This document shows positions 3,669 to 13,207 of a stretch of DNA of 64,000 nt, piece after piece (within the stretch, counting starts at the first letter, position 1; each line of letters begins with the position of its first letter). Location of the stretch: the NCBI GenBank assembly GCA_938015435.1, contig CALLPN010000001.1, positions 372,001 through 436,000 on the forward strand, given 5' to 3'. This DNA is from an uncultured Saprospiraceae bacterium. GTDB taxonomy: Bacteria > Bacteroidota > Bacteroidia > Chitinophagales > Saprospiraceae. The notes under the pieces are model-generated. The model had not been told where the DNA came from and searched no databases. It saw only the letters and a list, made by a program, of their open reading frames with translations. The position numbers and the translations under genes are program-made.

Positions 3669-5210
3669 ATGCCTAAGGTATCTACAGAACATCTCTTAGA
3701 AGTAATTCGAAGTCTAACGAAATCAGAAAAACGCAATTTCAGAATACACTCCGAGCGAAATAATAAAAGCTCTGATTTACTTTTTATCCAAGTTTATGAT
3801 TTCTTAGATCGCTTCGATAGATATGATGAAAAACTATTACTAAAGAGGATCCCTAAATTAAAAAAGTCACAACTCTCGAATATAAAAGCACATTTGTACA
3901 AACTGATTCTTGCTAGCCTAAGAAGAATAGACAAAAAATCTGAATTAGACATCAGCATCAGAGACCAATTGGACTACTCGAGAATACTATACAACAAAGG
4001 ATTATATAGAGCCAGTCTCGCACTATTGGACAAAACCAAAAAGCTCGCTTGTCAACATGGCTTTTTCTCTAGTGCCTTGTCCGCGTTGGAATTTGAAAAA
4101 TTTATTGAGAGCCAATATATAACGGGTAGTATGTACCCTAAAGCCAAGCAGATTACTAATGAAACTGCAGATCTTATTGAAAAACTCACACTGACTCATA
4201 GATTATCTAATCTTTCACTATCCATGTATGCCTTTTACCTTCAGCATGGTCACATCAAAATAGGTTCTATATACGATGAAGTGACTAATCATTTTATCTC
4301 TTCACTTCCAGATGTAGAGTACAAGTCGATGGATTTTTATCAAAAACTTTATTTCACTCAATCCAGTGCATGGTACTGCATGATGACGCTCGACTTCCCC
4401 AACCACTTTAAACACGCTAAAAAGTGGCTTGACTTATTTGATGAATATCCGAATAAAAAACAATCAGAAACCACCTTATATATCAAAGGCTTACACAATG
4501 TTCTTTCGGCCTTATTCATGAATAGTGCGACTAAAAAATTCCTTGGGCATTATGATAAATTAATGCACTTTGAAAAATCGGACAAATTTAAAATTACCGC
4601 AAATGAACTTAGCCAATTATCACTTTATCAAACACTTCATACCATTCACAAAATTTACTTAACTGCAGAATATTCCAAAAACGAAAAACACATACCTGCA
4701 ATAGAAAACTTAATCAATGAAAATCCTCACAATTGGGATAGTCATAGGATATTAGTACTCAAGTACAAAGTAGCATGCGTATACTTTGGAGCGAGTAAGT
4801 ACGACAAAGCAACAACCCTACTCAACTTAATCATCAATAAAAACTACAGTGGGATTAGACAAGATATCCAATGCTATGCGCGCATACTCAATCTTGCCGC
4901 ACATTTCAATCTAGGCAATGAAACATTAGTAAGTTATCAAGTTAGAAGTGTATATAGATTTTTATTAAAAATGGATCAGCAGGAAAAAGTGTTACAGGAG
5001 ATCTTTAAATTTTTAAGAAAAACGCCAAACATTTTACCTTCACAACTCAAAACAGAATTCAGAAAATTACGAGCGATTCTTCGACCACTTTCTAAGGACC
5101 CAAAAGAAAGGAGACCTTTCATATATTTTGACATCATCGCGTGGCTTGACAGTAGGATTAATGGAACTAAGATTGAAGTAGAGGTCCAAAAAAAAATTAA
5201 AAATAATTGA
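3669..5210 (+). CDS. conserved hypothetical protein (helical, TPR-like), 513 aa
   Basis: Long ORF with ATG start; alpha-helical sequence typical of a Bacteroidota-restricted family (MPKVSTEHLLEVIRSLTKSEKRNFRIHSER...). Confidence 0.8.
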   Translation: MPKVSTEHLLEVIRSLTKSEKRNFRIHSERNNKSSDLLFIQVYDFLDRFDRYDEKLLLKRIPKLKKSQLSNIKAHLYKLILASLRRIDKKSELDISIRDQLDYSRILYNKGLYRASLALLDKTKKLACQHGFFSSALSALEFEKFIESQYITGSMYPKAKQITNETADLIEKLTLTHRLSNLSLSMYAFYLQHGHIKIGSIYDEVTNHFISSLPDVEYKSMDFYQKLYFTQSSAWYCMMTLDFPNHFKHAKKWLDLFDEYPNKKQSETTLYIKGLHNVLSALFMNSATKKFLGHYDKLMHFEKSDKFKITANELSQLSLYQTLHTIHKIYLTAEYSKNEKHIPAIENLINENPHNWDSHRILVLKYKVACVYFGASKYDKATTLLNLIINKNYSGIRQDIQCYARILNLAAHFNLGNETLVSYQVRSVYRFLLKMDQQEKVLQEIFKFLRKTPNILPSQLKTEFRKLRAILRPLSKDPKERRPFIYFDIIAWLDSRINGTKIEVEVQKKIKNN

Positions 5211-5295: not shown

Positions 5296-6558
5296 TTATA
5301 CCAACATATCCATTAGCACAGAGTTCTCATTGAGATAACCACCATAAAATTGTTTGTCTTTCATTCTTGACATCAGAGGATCGAAGTCTTTTTTGTCTTT
5401 CAGTTCGACACCTACAACTGCTGTTCCTTTTCCCCTAGAAGTCTTTTTGGTATATTCAAAATGAGTAATATCATCCGATGGGCCAAGTATATCTACAACA
5501 AACTCTTTGAGTGCTCCTGCACGTTGAGGAAATTTCACTAAGAAGTAATGCTTCAGACCTTGATAAAGCATTGCTCTTTCCTTGATCTCCTCCATCCGCG
5601 TGATATCATTATTCCCTCCACTGATAATACAGACTACGTTCTTTCCTTTGATTTGTTCAGAGTATTGATCTAAGGCAGATATACTTAAGGCTCCTGCGGG
5701 TTCTAATACTATCGCGGCCTTATTATATACGTATAGGATCGTTTCACAGATCTTACCTTCATCGACAGTAATCATATCATCTAGATTAGCTTGACAAATA
5801 TGAAAGTTGCGCTCTCCCACTCTCTTTACCGAAGCTCCATCTACGAACTTATCTACATGATCTAAAGTATAATTAGTTCTATGATCTAAGGATGTCTTCA
5901 TAGAAGGCGCACCTTTCGGCTCTACTCCGATGATCTTAGTTTGCGGCGACAAGGTCTTCAATACTGTACTCAGACCCGCAGCCAATCCACCTCCACCAAC
6001 TGGAAGAAAGATATAATCTATAGGTGCGGTACTTTGCTTTAGTATTTCCAATCCAATTGTAGCCTGCCCTTCTATCACTTTTTCATCATCGAATGGATGT
6101 ATGAATGACATATCATTTGCCACACAATAAACCTTAGCATGTTCGCTGGCTTCATCGAAAGTATCACCTACCAATATCACTTCGACATACTTTTCACCAA
6201 ACATCTTTACTTGATTGATTTTTTGACCTGGCGTCGGACTTGGCATAAATATCTTCCCATATGCTTTGAGTGCTTTGCATGAATATGCAACCCCCTGCGC
6301 ATGGTTACCCGCGCTTGCACATACTACACCTTTAGCTAATTGCTTAGCCGTCAATGATTTCATCTTGTTATATGCACCACGAATCTTATAAGATCGTACT
6401 ATCTGCAAATCTTCACGCTTAAGCATCACATTACATCCATATGCTTTGGAATAATTGATACTCTGATCTAAGGGAGTAATACTTGCTACTCCGTCAAGTA
6501 ACTGCGCCGCTGACTTAACATCTTCAAGATCTGGAAAATAATGATTCGTCGTTTCCAT
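5296..6558 (-). CDS. ilvA: threonine dehydratase, biosynthetic type
   Basis: 420 aa; PLP site KREDLQIVRSYKIRGAYNKM, VGGGGLAAG glycine loop, C-terminal ACT-like region. Confidence 0.95.
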   Translation of the reverse strand: METTNHYFPDLEDVKSAAQLLDGVASITPLDQSINYSKAYGCNVMLKREDLQIVRSYKIRGAYNKMKSLTAKQLAKGVVCASAGNHAQGVAYSCKALKAYGKIFMPSPTPGQKINQVKMFGEKYVEVILVGDTFDEASEHAKVYCVANDMSFIHPFDDEKVIEGQATIGLEILKQSTAPIDYIFLPVGGGGLAAGLSTVLKTLSPQTKIIGVEPKGAPSMKTSLDHRTNYTLDHVDKFVDGASVKRVGERNFHICQANLDDMITVDEGKICETILYVYNKAAIVLEPAGALSISALDQYSEQIKGKNVVCIISGGNNDITRMEEIKERAMLYQGLKHYFLVKFPQRAGALKEFVVDILGPSDDITHFEYTKKTSRGKGTAVVGVELKDKKDFDPLMSRMKDKQFYGGYLNENSVLMDMLV

Positions 6559-6560
6559 AA

Positions 6561-8057
6561 TTATACTTCATCTACTTCGGCAACGTCAGTTTTTATTGAC
6601 TTCATCGCAGTCATTGCAGTTCGCAATTTCTTTCCTATGATTTCTATCTCATGATTTCTAATCGCATCATTCACTCTTATGAGTTCGAGATTGTCAACAT
6701 CATGATTTGTCCTGTAAGGCTTTCCGATGAGATCAGTAGATACCGTCTGCATAAACTCAGATAGCAAAGGCTTACAGGCATGATCAAAAAGATAACAACC
6801 GTACTCCGCTGTATCAGAGATTACTCGATTCATTTCATATAATTTTTTCCTAGCAATCGTATTGGCAATCAATGGTAACTCATGCAACGATTCGTAATAT
6901 GCGGAGTCTTCTACGATCCCTGCACTCACCATAGTTTCGAATGCTAATTCTACTCCTGACTTGACAAAAGCAACTAAAAGTAACCCATGATCAAAATACT
7001 CTTGCTCAGAAATATGTTTTTTGCTAATTTCTGTTTTTTCGAAAGCAGTTTCACCAGTGGCTCCTCTCCATTTCAATAGATTAACATCGTCATTATCCCA
7101 GTCTTGCATCATAGTCTGAGAAAAATGGCCAGAAATAACATCATCCATGTGCTTTTCAAATAATGGTCTCATTATATCTTTCAATTCTAATGATAGATCA
7201 TATGCTTTAATCTTAGCTGGATTAGAAAGTCTATCCATCATATTGGTCACACCGCCATGCTTAAGAGCTTCAGTAATCGTCTCCCATCCATACTGTATCA
7301 ATTTAGCCGCATAGCTCGCTTCGATTCCCTCGGCTACCATCTTATCAAATGATAATATCGCACCGGTCTGTAATAGTCCGCAAAGAATAGTTTGCTCTCC
7401 CATCAAATCACTTTTCACTTCCGCTATGAAAGAAGATTCCAATACTCCTGCTTTATCTCCTCCTGTCGCCACTGCATATGCTTTAGCTTGAGACCATCCT
7501 TTATTCTCAGGATCATTTTCTGGATGCACTGCGATGAGTGTAGGTACACCAAAGCCACGCTTATACTCTTCTCTAACTTCAGTGCCTGGGCACTTGGGAG
7601 CCACCATAATCACTGTAAGATCATCTCGCACCTTCATCCCTTCTTCGACTATATTAAATCCGTGAGAATAACTTAACGTTGCTCCTTTTTTCATTAGTGG
7701 CATTACGGCTTGTACCACATTGGTGTGTTGCTTATCTGGAGTTAGATTAAGTACTAGATCCGCAGTTGGAATAAGCTGATCATATGTACCCACATTAAAC
7801 CCATTCTCTGTTGCATTTACAAACGAAGCTCGCTTCTCATCTATCGATTGCTGTCTCAGTGCATAAGAGATATCTAAACCTGAGTCTCTCATATTTAATC
7901 CTTGATTGAGTCCTTGCGCACCACAACCAACTATTACTATCTTTTTACTTTTCAATGTTTCTACTCCATCTTCGAATTCAGATGCCTCCATAAAGCGGCA
8001 TTTCCCTAATTGATCTAGTTGATTTCTAAGTGATAATGAGTTAAAATAATTTGCCAT
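6561..8057 (-). CDS. ilvC: ketol-acid reductoisomerase (long, class II form)
   Basis: 498 aa; [28 protein letters not shown] Rossmann motif; length and duplicated C-terminal domain match class II KARI. Confidence 0.96.
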
Positions 8058-8109: not shown

Positions 8110-8637
8110 CTACTTCATTGCTTCTAGCGTTTTGGAAATTTCCAAAGGCTCTTTGGTTACTGCAATACGACCCGCTCTTACGAACTGTAATATTCCAAAT
8201 GCTTTGAGCTTCTCATAAAGCGTTTCTACTTCTTTTTTTAAGCCTGATTTTTCCAGAACAAAAAACTCTTTAAAAACACTGACAATATTAGCGTTACTTT
8301 CCTTAATAATATTTTGAATCTCAGCATCCTCCAATAGCAAATTAGAAGACATCTTAAACAAACATGATTCTTGATAGATTGTATCTTCATCGAGATGATA
8401 ATAAGCCTTTATTACTTCTACTTGTTTTTCAATTTGTCCAATTATTTTTTTCATCTGATCTTCACTTACAGATATCAAAATAGTCCATCTCGAAACTCCT
8501 TCTACCTCAGATACGGATGAGTTTATGCTTTCAATATTAACATGACGCCTTTGAAATATAGCAGATATTCTATTAAGTAATCCGATATTATTTTCTGTAT
8601 ATACAGATACTGTATATAGGTGTATTTTATTTTCCAT
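8110..8637 (-). CDS. ilvN: acetolactate synthase small (regulatory) subunit
   Basis: 175 aa; N-terminal ACT domain (YTVSVYTENNIGLLNRISAIFQRRHVNIESINSSVSE); follows ilvB. Confidence 0.93.
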   Translation of the reverse strand: MENKIHLYTVSVYTENNIGLLNRISAIFQRRHVNIESINSSVSEVEGVSRWTILISVSEDQMKKIIGQIEKQVEVIKAYYHLDEDTIYQESCLFKMSSNLLLEDAEIQNIIKESNANIVSVFKEFFVLEKSGLKKEVETLYEKLKAFGILQFVRAGRIAVTKEPLEISKTLEAMK

Positions 8638-8639
8638 AA

Positions 8640-10355
8640 TTATTTTAATCTTATCTCTGATACACTAGCACCACTAGGCACCATTGGAAATACATTATTT
8701 TCTTTTCCTACCATCACTTCCAGTAAATAACTTCCTTTACTATTTAAAAAAGCATCGAGAGCAGTATCTAAATTTTCTCTTTGCTCCACTTTATTAGCAG
8801 GAATATGATAGCCTTTTGCTATTATCTGAAAATCAGGATTAACCATCTCCGTAAATGAATAACGACGATCAAAAAACATCTCTTGCCATTGTCTTACCAT
8901 ACCCAAAAATTCATTGTTTAGTATAAGAATTTTGACATCCACACCTGATTGATATATAGTACCGAGTTCTTGTATTGTCATCTGAAAACCTCCATCTCCG
9001 ATCACGGCTATCACTTGTCGGTCTGGTGCACCAAACTTAGCACCAATTGCCGCTGGCAATGCAAACCCCATCGTCCCAAGGCCTCCAGAAGTAATATTAG
9101 ATCTCCACTTAGAAAATTCGTAGTAACGCTGTGCTACCATTTGATGCTGCCCTACATCAGTAACCAATACTGACTCTCCTTTCGTTTTGTCAGATATTAA
9201 TTTGATTACTTCTCCCATCGATATAGGTTGGTCATTAGCAGGACTGATTTCTTTTTTGATCACCACATCATATTCTTCTTGATAGAGATCATTAAATTGT
9301 GACAACCATTTAGCATGAGATCTCCGTGTAATCGCTTCTGTAATAAGTGGTAACGTGATTTTACAATCTCCTAAAACTGCGACATCTGCTTGTACGTTTT
9401 TACTGATTTCCGCTGGATCTAATTCCAAATGAATGACTTTGGCCTGTTTAGCATATCTACTCAAATCACCAGTTACTCTATCGTCAAAACGCATTCCGAT
9501 GGCTATTAGTACATCACATTCATTAGTCATTATATTAGGGCCATAGTTACCATGCATTCCAAGCATACCTACATTGAGTGGATGGCTATCCTTAAGAGCA
9601 GACAAGCCCATTATAGTCCATGCAGAAGGAATACCAGACTTATCTACAAAGGCTTCAAATTCTTTTTGCGCATCAGCTAATAATACACCTTGACCAAACA
9701 ATACCAGTGGTTTTTTCGCATGGTTGATAAGATCAGCGGCTTTCCATATAGAGGATTTTTCTATTTCTGGGTCTGCCACGTAACTTCTGACTTGATTGCA
9801 GACTTGATACTCAAATTCGCATTCCCCAAATTGAGCATCTTTCGTAATATCAATCACAACAGGACCAGGCCTTCCACTACGTGCAATATAAAATGCCTTA
9901 GCCACAGCCGCTGGGATTTCTTCTGCCTTCGTAATCTGTACATTCCACTTTGTAACTGGCATAGATATCCCCATCACATCAGTCTCTTGGAAAGCATCCG
10001 TACCTAACAGATGACTAGCTACCTGACCTGTAATACATACCATCGGTGTAGAGTCAATCTGAGCATCTGCAATCCCCGTAATCAAGTTAGTCGCTCCTGG
10101 ACCACTTGTCGCAAATACTACTCCGACTTTGCCAGATATTCTAGCATAGCCTTGAGCGGCATGGGTAGCCCCTTGCTCATGCCTTACTAACAGATGATTT
10201 ATTTTTTCTCGATAGCCATGTAATGCATCATAGATCGGCATGATAGCTCCACCAGGGTAACCAAAAATTGTATCTACTTGCTCAGCCAATAGGCATTCTA
10301 TTAGAGCTTGAGATCCAGAAATTGACTTCGTTTTGTTCTTAGTACTTACTTCCAT
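8640..10355 (-). CDS. ilvB: acetolactate synthase large subunit
   Basis: 571 aa; ThDP enzyme: FGYPGGAIMPIYDAL, GPGATNLITGIADA, GDGGFQMTIQELGT. Confidence 0.97.
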   Translation of the reverse strand: MEVSTKNKTKSISGSQALIECLLAEQVDTIFGYPGGAIMPIYDALHGYREKINHLLVRHEQGATHAAQGYARISGKVGVVFATSGPGATNLITGIADAQIDSTPMVCITGQVASHLLGTDAFQETDVMGISMPVTKWNVQITKAEEIPAAVAKAFYIARSGRPGPVVIDITKDAQFGECEFEYQVCNQVRSYVADPEIEKSSIWKAADLINHAKKPLVLFGQGVLLADAQKEFEAFVDKSGIPSAWTIMGLSALKDSHPLNVGMLGMHGNYGPNIMTNECDVLIAIGMRFDDRVTGDLSRYAKQAKVIHLELDPAEISKNVQADVAVLGDCKITLPLITEAITRRSHAKWLSQFNDLYQEEYDVVIKKEISPANDQPISMGEVIKLISDKTKGESVLVTDVGQHQMVAQRYYEFSKWRSNITSGGLGTMGFALPAAIGAKFGAPDRQVIAVIGDGGFQMTIQELGTIYQSGVDVKILILNNEFLGMVRQWQEMFFDRRYSFTEMVNPDFQIIAKGYHIPANKVEQRENLDTALDAFLNSKGSYLLEVMVGKENNVFPMVPSGASVSEIRLK

Positions 10356-10577: not shown

Positions 10578-12266
10578 TTATTTATCTGTCACACAACCCG
10601 TAGAAGCAGATGACACCTCTCTAGCATATTTAAACAATACTCCTCTACTTACTTTTAGTGGTGGTGCAGTCCAAGAATGCTTTCTATTTTCAATTTCTTC
10701 ATGGGTTATATCTACATTAATTGTATTTAACTCTGCATCTATAGTAATCATATCTCCATCTTGTAGTAATCCAATCATACCCCCGATTTGAGCTTCTGGA
10801 GTAATATGTCCCACAACAAATCCATGCGTCCCACCAGAGAATCTACCGTCAGTAATCAATGCTACATCTTGGCCTAATCCCGCTCCAATAATTGCAGCTG
10901 TGGGCTTCAACATTTCAGGCATTCCTGGACCACCTTTGGGGCCTTCATATCTAATTACAACGACATCACCTTTATTCACTTTTCCATTAGCAATACCATC
11001 GTTAGCAGCATACTCCCCTTCAAATACTTTTGCTGGGCCAGAGAATCGCAATCCTTCTTTTCCTGTAATCTTTGCTACCGATCCTTCTTTCGCTAAATTA
11101 CCAGTAAGTATTCTGATGTGCCCAGTTGATTTTATTGGTGCGTCTATAGATTTTATTATTTTTTGGTTTTCTTTGAGATCATCAACATTAGCAAGATTTT
11201 CAGCTAAAGTTTTTCCAGTGACCGTCATACATTCACCGTGGAGCAGTCCCTGTTCTAATAAGTATTTCATTACTGCAGGTACGCCTCCTACATTATGCAA
11301 ATCTTCCATCATGTATTTTCCACTAGGTTTCAGATCTGCTAGGAAAGGAGTTTTATCACTTATTTTCTGGATATCTTCTAAGCTAAACTGAATACCAGCT
11401 GCATCCGAGATTGCTAAATAATGTAATACTGCATTAGTAGATCCACCGAGTGCTGTAACTACAGTAAGCGCATTCTCTAATGATTTTTTAGAGATAATAT
11501 CAGACGGTTTAATGTCATGAGTGAGTAAGTTCATAATGGCTTTCCCTGCTTTTTCACATTCATCTTGCTTTGCTGCTCCATCTGCTGGATTAGAAGAATT
11601 GTAAGGTAACGCAAAACCTAAAGCTTCTAATGAGGCGGCCATAGTATTGGCTGTATACATACCTCCACAAGCTCCTGCTCCTGGACATGCATTTTCGATT
11701 ACCGCATCAAACTCTTCACTGTCAATCTTACCAGATACTTTTTCTCCCCAAGCCTCAAAAGCAGAAACAATATCTAACTTACGTCCCTTATAATCTCCTG
11801 GAGCAATAGTCCCACCATAAATCAATATTGCAGGTCTATCTAATCTAAGAATTGCCATCATTGCTCCTGGCATATTTTTATCACAGCCTACAACCGTCAC
11901 CAATCCATCATAACTCATTGCACCCATTACCATCTCCATAGAATCTGCAATCAAATCTCTCGATGGTAGTGAATATCTCATACCCGGAGTACCCATAGAT
12001 ATTCCATCACTTACACCAATGGTATTAAACACTAGACCTACTCCATCAGATTCTTTCACACCTTTCTTGACTAGCTGAGCGAGTAAATTGAGATGCATAT
12101 TACAAGGATTTCCTTCATACCCAGTACTTCCTATTCCTACGAATGATTTATTAAAATCATCCTTAGTAAGTCCAACGGCATGCAACATTGCCTTAGCTGC
12201 TGGTTGACTGTCATCTTGGGTTACACATTTACTATACTTCTTATTTATCATTTTTATTTCATTCAA
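10578..12266 (-). CDS. ilvD: dihydroxy-acid dehydratase
   Basis: 562 aa; [33 protein letters not shown] and [24 protein letters not shown] motifs. Confidence 0.97.
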
Positions 12267-12272
12267 TTAGCA

Positions 12273-12310
12273 ACAAAAAAAAAAGCGCTTCTCAAAATTG
12301 AGAAGCGCTT
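12273..12310 (-). terminator. attenuator terminator upstream of ilvD
   Basis: Minus strand AAGCGCTTCTCAA-(TT)-TTGAGAAGCGCTT: perfect 13-bp arms (12298-12310 / 12283-12295), then a run of T on the minus strand (A-run 12275-12284 on plus; last bases overlap the stem). Lies between leader ORF and ilvD. Confidence 0.9.
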
Positions 12311-12340
12311 ATATATTATTTCATAATTAGCAATATCTTC

Positions 12341-12406
12341 TCAGGTCGTACATTGAATAATGACAACAATAATAATGATTGATATAATGCTAAAATTTGT
12401 ATTCAT
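12341..12406 (-). CDS. ilvL: ilv operon leader peptide MNTNFSIISIIIIVVIIQCTT
   Basis: Minus strand ATG AAT ACA AAT TTT AGC ATT ATA TCA ATC ATT ATT ATT GTT GTC ATT ATT CAA TGT ACG ACC TGA: 21 codons with 8 Ile and 2 Val; stop codon overlaps a segment complementary to the terminator 5' arm. Too short for the ORF track. Confidence 0.85.
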   Translation of the reverse strand: MNTNFSIISIIIIVVIIQCTT

Positions 12407-12747
12407 ATTTTTTCGTGCATCTAAGCACTTATAAGTTTGAATGCGTAAATCTATACTATATATTCACATAATTCGCAAAAACCATTAAATTAATTTGATA
12501 AAACTCTACTATATCCTAGTAATTTAGATAATACGAATATGCATCAAGTATATACTTAGCTATTAGTAACCAGACATTTAGAAATGAATTAGCTAAGTGA
12601 TTATTAATAATAATTAAAGAAAAAAACATATGAAAATAAATTTTCGTTTTTTAAAAATTGAATGAAAACTGACACAATTATGTATTTTTCAACTCTAATG
12701 TATCTATAAAACTTGTTGCCCTAAATTAGTAGAAGCTTATAAAAATA

Positions 12748-12829: not shown

Positions 12830-13207
12830 TTAATCAACAACGTCTGTGATATTTATCCTTGCAACAATAGCGTCTTCTGCGCCTTTGTTTGCTACCATAA
12901 TCATTGCAGTTATAAACTGCCTTTCTTCGAAATCAAAAGTAGATGCATCAGCTACAGAAATCTTTCCTGTTAAAGGAGTGACCGCTAAAGCTCCTGCTGG
13001 ATCTTGTGACATAATTTCAAAAGTCAAAATACCTCTATTAGTGGTAGCCGCAATACTACCTAAGGTCTGACCGTTTTGAGGATTTTCCGCAACGTCAACC
13101 ACAAACTCTGTGGCTGAAACTTCAATTGGTAAAAGGTCGTCTCCGCAAGACATTAATGATAGTGTAATTGAAGACACTATCAAAAACCCTAAAAAATTAA
13201 TCTTCAT
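12830..13207 (-). CDS. small lipoprotein with one cadherin-like domain
   Basis: 125 aa; lipobox-like SSITLSLMSCGDD; VAENPQNGQTLGSI...TFDFEERQFITAMIMVANKGAED resembles cadherin-repeat core motifs. Confidence 0.65.
   Translation of the reverse strand: MKINFLGFLIVSSITLSLMSCGDDLLPIEVSATEFVVDVAENPQNGQTLGSIAATTNRGILTFEIMSQDPAGALAVTPLTGKISVADASTFDFEERQFITAMIMVANKGAEDAIVARINITDVVD

Follow-up and report, generated by a model that had tools for sequence, protein, structure and literature searches.

Predicted ribosome-mediated attenuation of an ilvDBNCA operon in a Saprospiraceae bacterium, and Ile/Val leader peptides upstream of ilvD in Bacteroidota

The ilvDBNCA operon of an uncultured Saprospiraceae bacterium is predicted to be controlled by a ribosome-mediated transcription attenuator, which would match its expression to how much charged Ile-tRNA and Val-tRNA is available. 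From the sequence analysis of a 64,000-nt stretch of DNA (the window) and of related genomes, we give this reading a probability of roughly 0.9; it is the comparison with relatives that renders the case strong. The leader codons, the terminator, the antiterminator and the function of the operon all fit, which supports the original prediction of ribosome-mediated attenuation at this site. The kind of regulation is known; less expected are its spread over the phylum and the tandem attenuators found in 14 relatives. A broader proposal, towards which we lean only slightly, is that Ile/Val attenuation at ilvD is Bacteroidota-wide, has repeatedly been rebuilt as pairs of identical specificity and keeps the antiterminator at a distance of about one ribosome footprint past the final sensing codon. 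The features of the locus are compiled in Table 1.

Table 1. Features of the predicted attenuator and its operon (positions in the window)
Feature	Positions	Strand	Details
ilvA, threonine ammonia-lyase	5296..6558	-	TIGR02079
ilvC, ketol-acid reductoisomerase	6561..8057	-	PRK05225 / TIGR00465
ilvN, acetolactate synthase small subunit	8110..8637	-	TIGR00119
ilvB, acetolactate synthase large subunit	8640..10355	-	TIGR00118
ilvD, dihydroxy-acid dehydratase, first structural gene	10578..12251	-	NCBIfam TIGR00110, 738.7 bits
Intrinsic terminator	12275..12310	-	12-bp stem, 4-nt loop, T-run; AAGCGCTTCTCA-ATTT-TGAGAAGCGCTT at 12310-12283, T-run reaching 12275
Region 3, terminator 5' arm	12299..12310	-	AAGCGCTTCTCA; common to antiterminator and terminator
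Region 2, antiterminator 5' strand	12329..12343	-	UGAGAAG-auau-UGCU; overlaps leader stop
Leader peptide ORF	12341..12406	-	MNTNFSIISIIIIVVIIQCTT*; 21 residues, 8 Ile and 2 Val codons; sensing codons 7-17
Possible region 1, inside leader ORF	12382..12394	-	UUAGCA..AUAUC; fold of naked RNA
Candidate Bacteroidota-type promoter	12446..12479	-	read by eye; TTTG (12479-12476), spacer 22 nt, TAGATTTA (12453-12446); consensus TAnnTTTG

An Ile/Val mini-ORF on the minus strand upstream of ilvD had been described and is read exactly so at 12406-12341. Its codons, from 12406 down to 12341, are ATG AAT ACA AAT TTT AGC ATT ATA TCA ATC ATT, followed by ATT ATT GTT GTC ATT ATT CAA TGT ACG ACC TGA, with the stretch IIIIVVII unbroken. 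In L083 and L084, the two relatives from the same genus, the mini-ORF is kept with synonymous codon changes, and the Ile/Val run is retained while the sequence farther upstream of the leader diverges. The claim that ilvD is the first gene also holds, its identity being confirmed by TIGR00110 and its ATG lying at 12251. With the order ilvD-B-N-C-A, the operon makes the very amino acids, Ile and Val, that would be sensed.

The genes leuA, leuC and leuD lie farther on, past a gene on the opposite strand; a 513-aa ORF (window positions 3669-5210, plus strand) stands between them and the ilv genes. By eye, no leucine leader of this kind was seen in the 150-nt gap before leuA. In the same genome, no other leader-peptide attenuator was detected before the aspartokinase genes or in the part of the trpE surroundings that was examined. 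As a side observation, hisG was not found with TIGR00070 in this genome (about 89% complete), and it is present in 13 of 14 control genomes.

The terminator sits between the leader ORF and the ilvD start codon and begins 30 nt past the leader stop. A perfect 13-bp hairpin with a T-run had been proposed: hairpin and T-run stand, the stem consists of 12 pairs, and a thirteenth would require a 2-nt loop. Likewise, the proposed complementarity between TGAGAAG (12343-12337), the TGA of which is the leader stop codon, and CTTCTCA in the 5' arm of the terminator was seen, but the antiterminator is longer than had been stated. UGAGAAG and, beyond a 4-nt bulge, UGCU pair with AGCGCUUCUCA (UGCU with AGCG), which gives 11 pairs and -11.7 kcal/mol. 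Folding of an RNA ending at 12296, just past the 5' arm, yielded this 11-pair structure. Antiterminator and terminator are mutually exclusive, and the upstream strand of the antiterminator starts at the leader stop. When the whole leader with the 3' arm was folded, the terminator was always the minimum-energy structure. Since the complete leader favours the terminator, the antiterminator must act by timing during transcription, as in trp.

Folds were calculated for a masking ribosome whose A site held codon 8, 10, 12, 14, 16 or 17, and for one at the stop codon. In agreement with the logic proposed earlier, region 2 is free with the ribosome on the Ile/Val run and covered with the ribosome at the stop. 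Counted from the first base of the final Ile codon, the antiterminator of the window begins at 15 nt; with this codon in the A site, a ribosome would only just fail to cover region 2. Under plentiful Ile- and Val-tRNA the ribosome would thus be expected to reach the stop codon and mask region 2, so that the terminator would form and the transcript would end near 12275. Under scarcity of Ile or Val it would stall at codons 7-17; the exposed region 2 would then pair with the 5' arm of the terminator ahead of synthesis of the 3' arm, and transcription would continue into ilvD. This timing would need RNA polymerase and the first ribosome to be close together.

In the naked RNA, the possible region 1 can pair with region 2 in a manner resembling the 1:2 helix of trp. 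The pairing in the window is not better than in synonymous codon permutations, and it is weak and not conserved in the same-genus relatives; region 1 is therefore doubtful, and a textbook 1:2 protector helix is unsupported for this genus. In aggregate, 1:2 pairing gave a weak signal (median z -1.0). The promoter listed in Table 1 would put the start of transcription near 12440. It is a guess, because TTTG/TAnnTTTG-like motifs upstream of the leaders of relatives are only weakly enriched over shuffles.

The comparison with relatives comprised 233 regions upstream of ilvD from named genomes and from relatives of the window in its family and phylum. A strict detector was used. It required a mini-ORF that starts with ATG, is 8-35 codons long, has Ile, Leu or Val at 6 or more of 10 residues and stops within -6 to 70 nt of a following terminator. 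Such units were present in 102 of the 233 regions; the controls yielded 7/233 for the reverse strand and 0/233 for every one of three dinucleotide-shuffled sets. The remaining 131 loci are without a strict unit, and many of them probably have another upstream context. Relatives that keep the hairpin and lack the mini-ORF had been named as evidence against attenuation; this expectation was not borne out, as under looser criteria 99 of the 108 regions with a good terminator at most 450 nt from ilvD carry an ILV-rich leader. The arrangement noted earlier, in a Bacteroidota context with ilvD first, is common in Bacteroidota and not peculiar to this genome.

Peptides, spacers and terminators vary from locus to locus, and the peptides share little beyond the Ile/Val run. 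Ile makes up 29.9% of the leader residues, Val 15.9% and Leu 5.5%. Among the Val codons in 116 leader units of relatives, GTC accounts for 194 of 370 (52%), compared to 35 of 313 (11%) in ten genes of the window; as many genomes are compared with one, this excess is a lead only. It possibly reflects a constraint on structure or the sensing of a single Val-tRNA species. In Flavobacteriaceae loci, e.g. L080, L061 and L014, the terminator precedes ilvD by about 200-300 nt, as compared to roughly 30 nt in the window, and the gap in these loci may hold a second promoter.

These counts bear on the explanation that the mini-ORF arose by chance in AT-rich intergenic DNA, where ATT and ATA codons come easily, and that the hairpin is an ordinary terminator insulating ilvD from the next upstream gene (12830-13207), which lies on the same strand as the leader. 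We regard this as very improbable. Units were found in 0 of 699 shuffled regions as against 102 of 233 observed, the mini-ORF is conserved synonymously within the genus, and the upstream gene has a terminator-like hairpin of its own far upstream of the leader. The locus-specific pairing of the antiterminator argues in the same direction.

For this pairing, every region 2 was combined with the terminator 5' arms of all loci. Matched pairs reached a mean of -10.2 kcal/mol and mismatched pairs -7.0 kcal/mol (Wilcoxon P 8e-18, an approximate value because the loci are related); near relatives within the mismatched set work against this difference. Compared to their own shuffles, 58% of the loci attained p <= 0.05. 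When the spacer from the last Ile/Val codon onward was used, pairing amounted to -12.4 kcal/mol as compared to -6.6 kcal/mol for shuffled spacers. At the level of sequence, the antiterminator pairing is locus-specific and co-varies among relatives.

The position of the antiterminator is tied to the sensing codons as well. Measured from the start of the last Ile/Val codon, its first base lies at a median of 15 nt (quartiles 13-17), and the standard deviation of this edge is 4.6 from that codon versus 8.8 from the stop codon. An edge at 12-18 nt occurs in 72% of the units, in 15% with shuffled spacers and in 53% with the arms of other loci, the last value being high because region-2 motifs recur between loci. 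A distance of 13-17 nt corresponds to about one ribosome footprint. The simplest reading, we infer, is that the antiterminator is placed by selection so that a ribosome stalling at the final sensing codon stops with its leading edge just short of it.

Two complete Ile/Val units in series were detected at 14 ilvD loci (L014, L022, L043, L056, L065, L070, L076, L085, L087, L105, L109, L110, L129 and L170), whereas the window has one. Their holders belong to Flavobacteriaceae (Bizionia, Gaetbulibacter, Aquimarina, Sinomicrobium and a MAG) and to the family of the window itself. On the IlvD tree the tandem state requires 9 changes, at least 7 of them forced by well-supported branches, and it has therefore been gained or lost repeatedly. 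In this tree the window clusters, with support, with L009 and L053, two loci from named Saprospiraceae, in keeping with its probable membership of that family. A second attenuator in the window was considered and rejected: upstream of the upper terminator-like hairpin there is nothing but the C-terminal part of the 12830-13207 gene, and the hairpin is for this reason most likely the terminator of that gene.

Another mechanism acting on the leader RNA, such as a T-box, a riboswitch or an RNA-binding protein, could drive the terminator, with the ORF serving only for reinitiation or mRNA protection. SAM-II riboswitches near ilvD in two relatives point that way; they lie on the opposite strand (L014:2102-2161 and L208:193-302, both minus) and presumably belong to a neighbouring methionine gene. 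Against such a mechanism, neither the window nor the ilv leaders of 20 relatives contain any Rfam family at gathering score. For the window this means no match to a T-box or any other described cis-regulatory RNA, with sub-threshold matches only (e.g. the trpB motif with 29.7 of 59 bits). No conserved non-coding aptamer was seen either, as only the Ile/Val codons, region 2 and the terminator recur, and the antiterminator edge is positioned relative to the last Ile/Val codon. We therefore hold this explanation, too, to be highly unlikely. Least probable of all is that the product is a functional small hydrophobic peptide (membrane or toxin-like), as the strongly hydrophobic IIIIVVII might suggest, given that little sequence is shared outside the Ile/Val run, that Ile and Val are enriched with Leu and Phe rare, that the position before terminator and ilvD is fixed and that an antiterminator is present.

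Attenuation by leader peptides is a classical mechanism, and the enterobacterial ilvGMEDA (ilvL) and ilvBN (ivbL) attenuators belong to it. The predicted attenuator of the window resembles ilvL and ivbL in having a leader peptide rich in the end products, a stop codon near the antiterminator strand and an intrinsic terminator before the first gene of a branched-chain operon. Unlike them, the leaders here feature Ile and Val only, with few Leu, ilvD is the first gene, the 1:2 protector helix is unsupported and initiation in the host is of the Bacteroidota type. The likeness to ilvL is meant as one of design, the leader being too short and of too low complexity for a claim of homology.

In the same phylum as the window, strong clues for leader-peptide attenuation upstream of amino-acid operons were reported in 2021 for Flavobacterium psychrophilum, in a study whose main text makes no mention of ilv (PMC9723704). 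Short ORFs reminiscent of leader peptides are described for Bacteroides thetaiotaomicron (PMC7366714). Tandem attenuators with two short ORFs in one leader are found at mgtCBR of Salmonella, where the signals differ, ATP for mgtM and proline for mgtP (PMC3641672). The ilv tandems of the 14 relatives are alike in having two leader ORFs, but they repeat one Ile/Val unit, each with its own terminator. Sequence-based surveys of attenuators in Actinobacteria (PMC1262725) and of premature terminators (PMC2965389) treated the same class of device, also by comparative genomics. Among papers accessible without subscription, our search found none that brings together ilvD, Bacteroidota and a leader peptide; such cases may already be listed in a comparative study from 2010 by Lopatovskaya and colleagues, as cited in PMC4833913.

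The element lies outside all Rfam families, and its mini-ORF is too short for usual annotation, so that marking MNTNFSIISIIIIVVIIQCTT and its counterparts in relatives would lead to better operon models. The mRNAs of Bacteroidota largely lack Shine-Dalgarno signals, and in such a phylum the locus is a clear candidate case of a central biosynthetic operon under classical attenuation. Such an attenuator would work only with the leading ribosome close behind RNA polymerase. As the device requires this close coupling, the leaders would be a direct reporter of coupling in Bacteroidota and, if the broader proposal is true, close coupling of transcription and translation would be implied for the phylum. 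A serial design would then lower the leak and sharpen the response to starvation, and the tandem units of the relatives offer natural experiments on serial attenuators.
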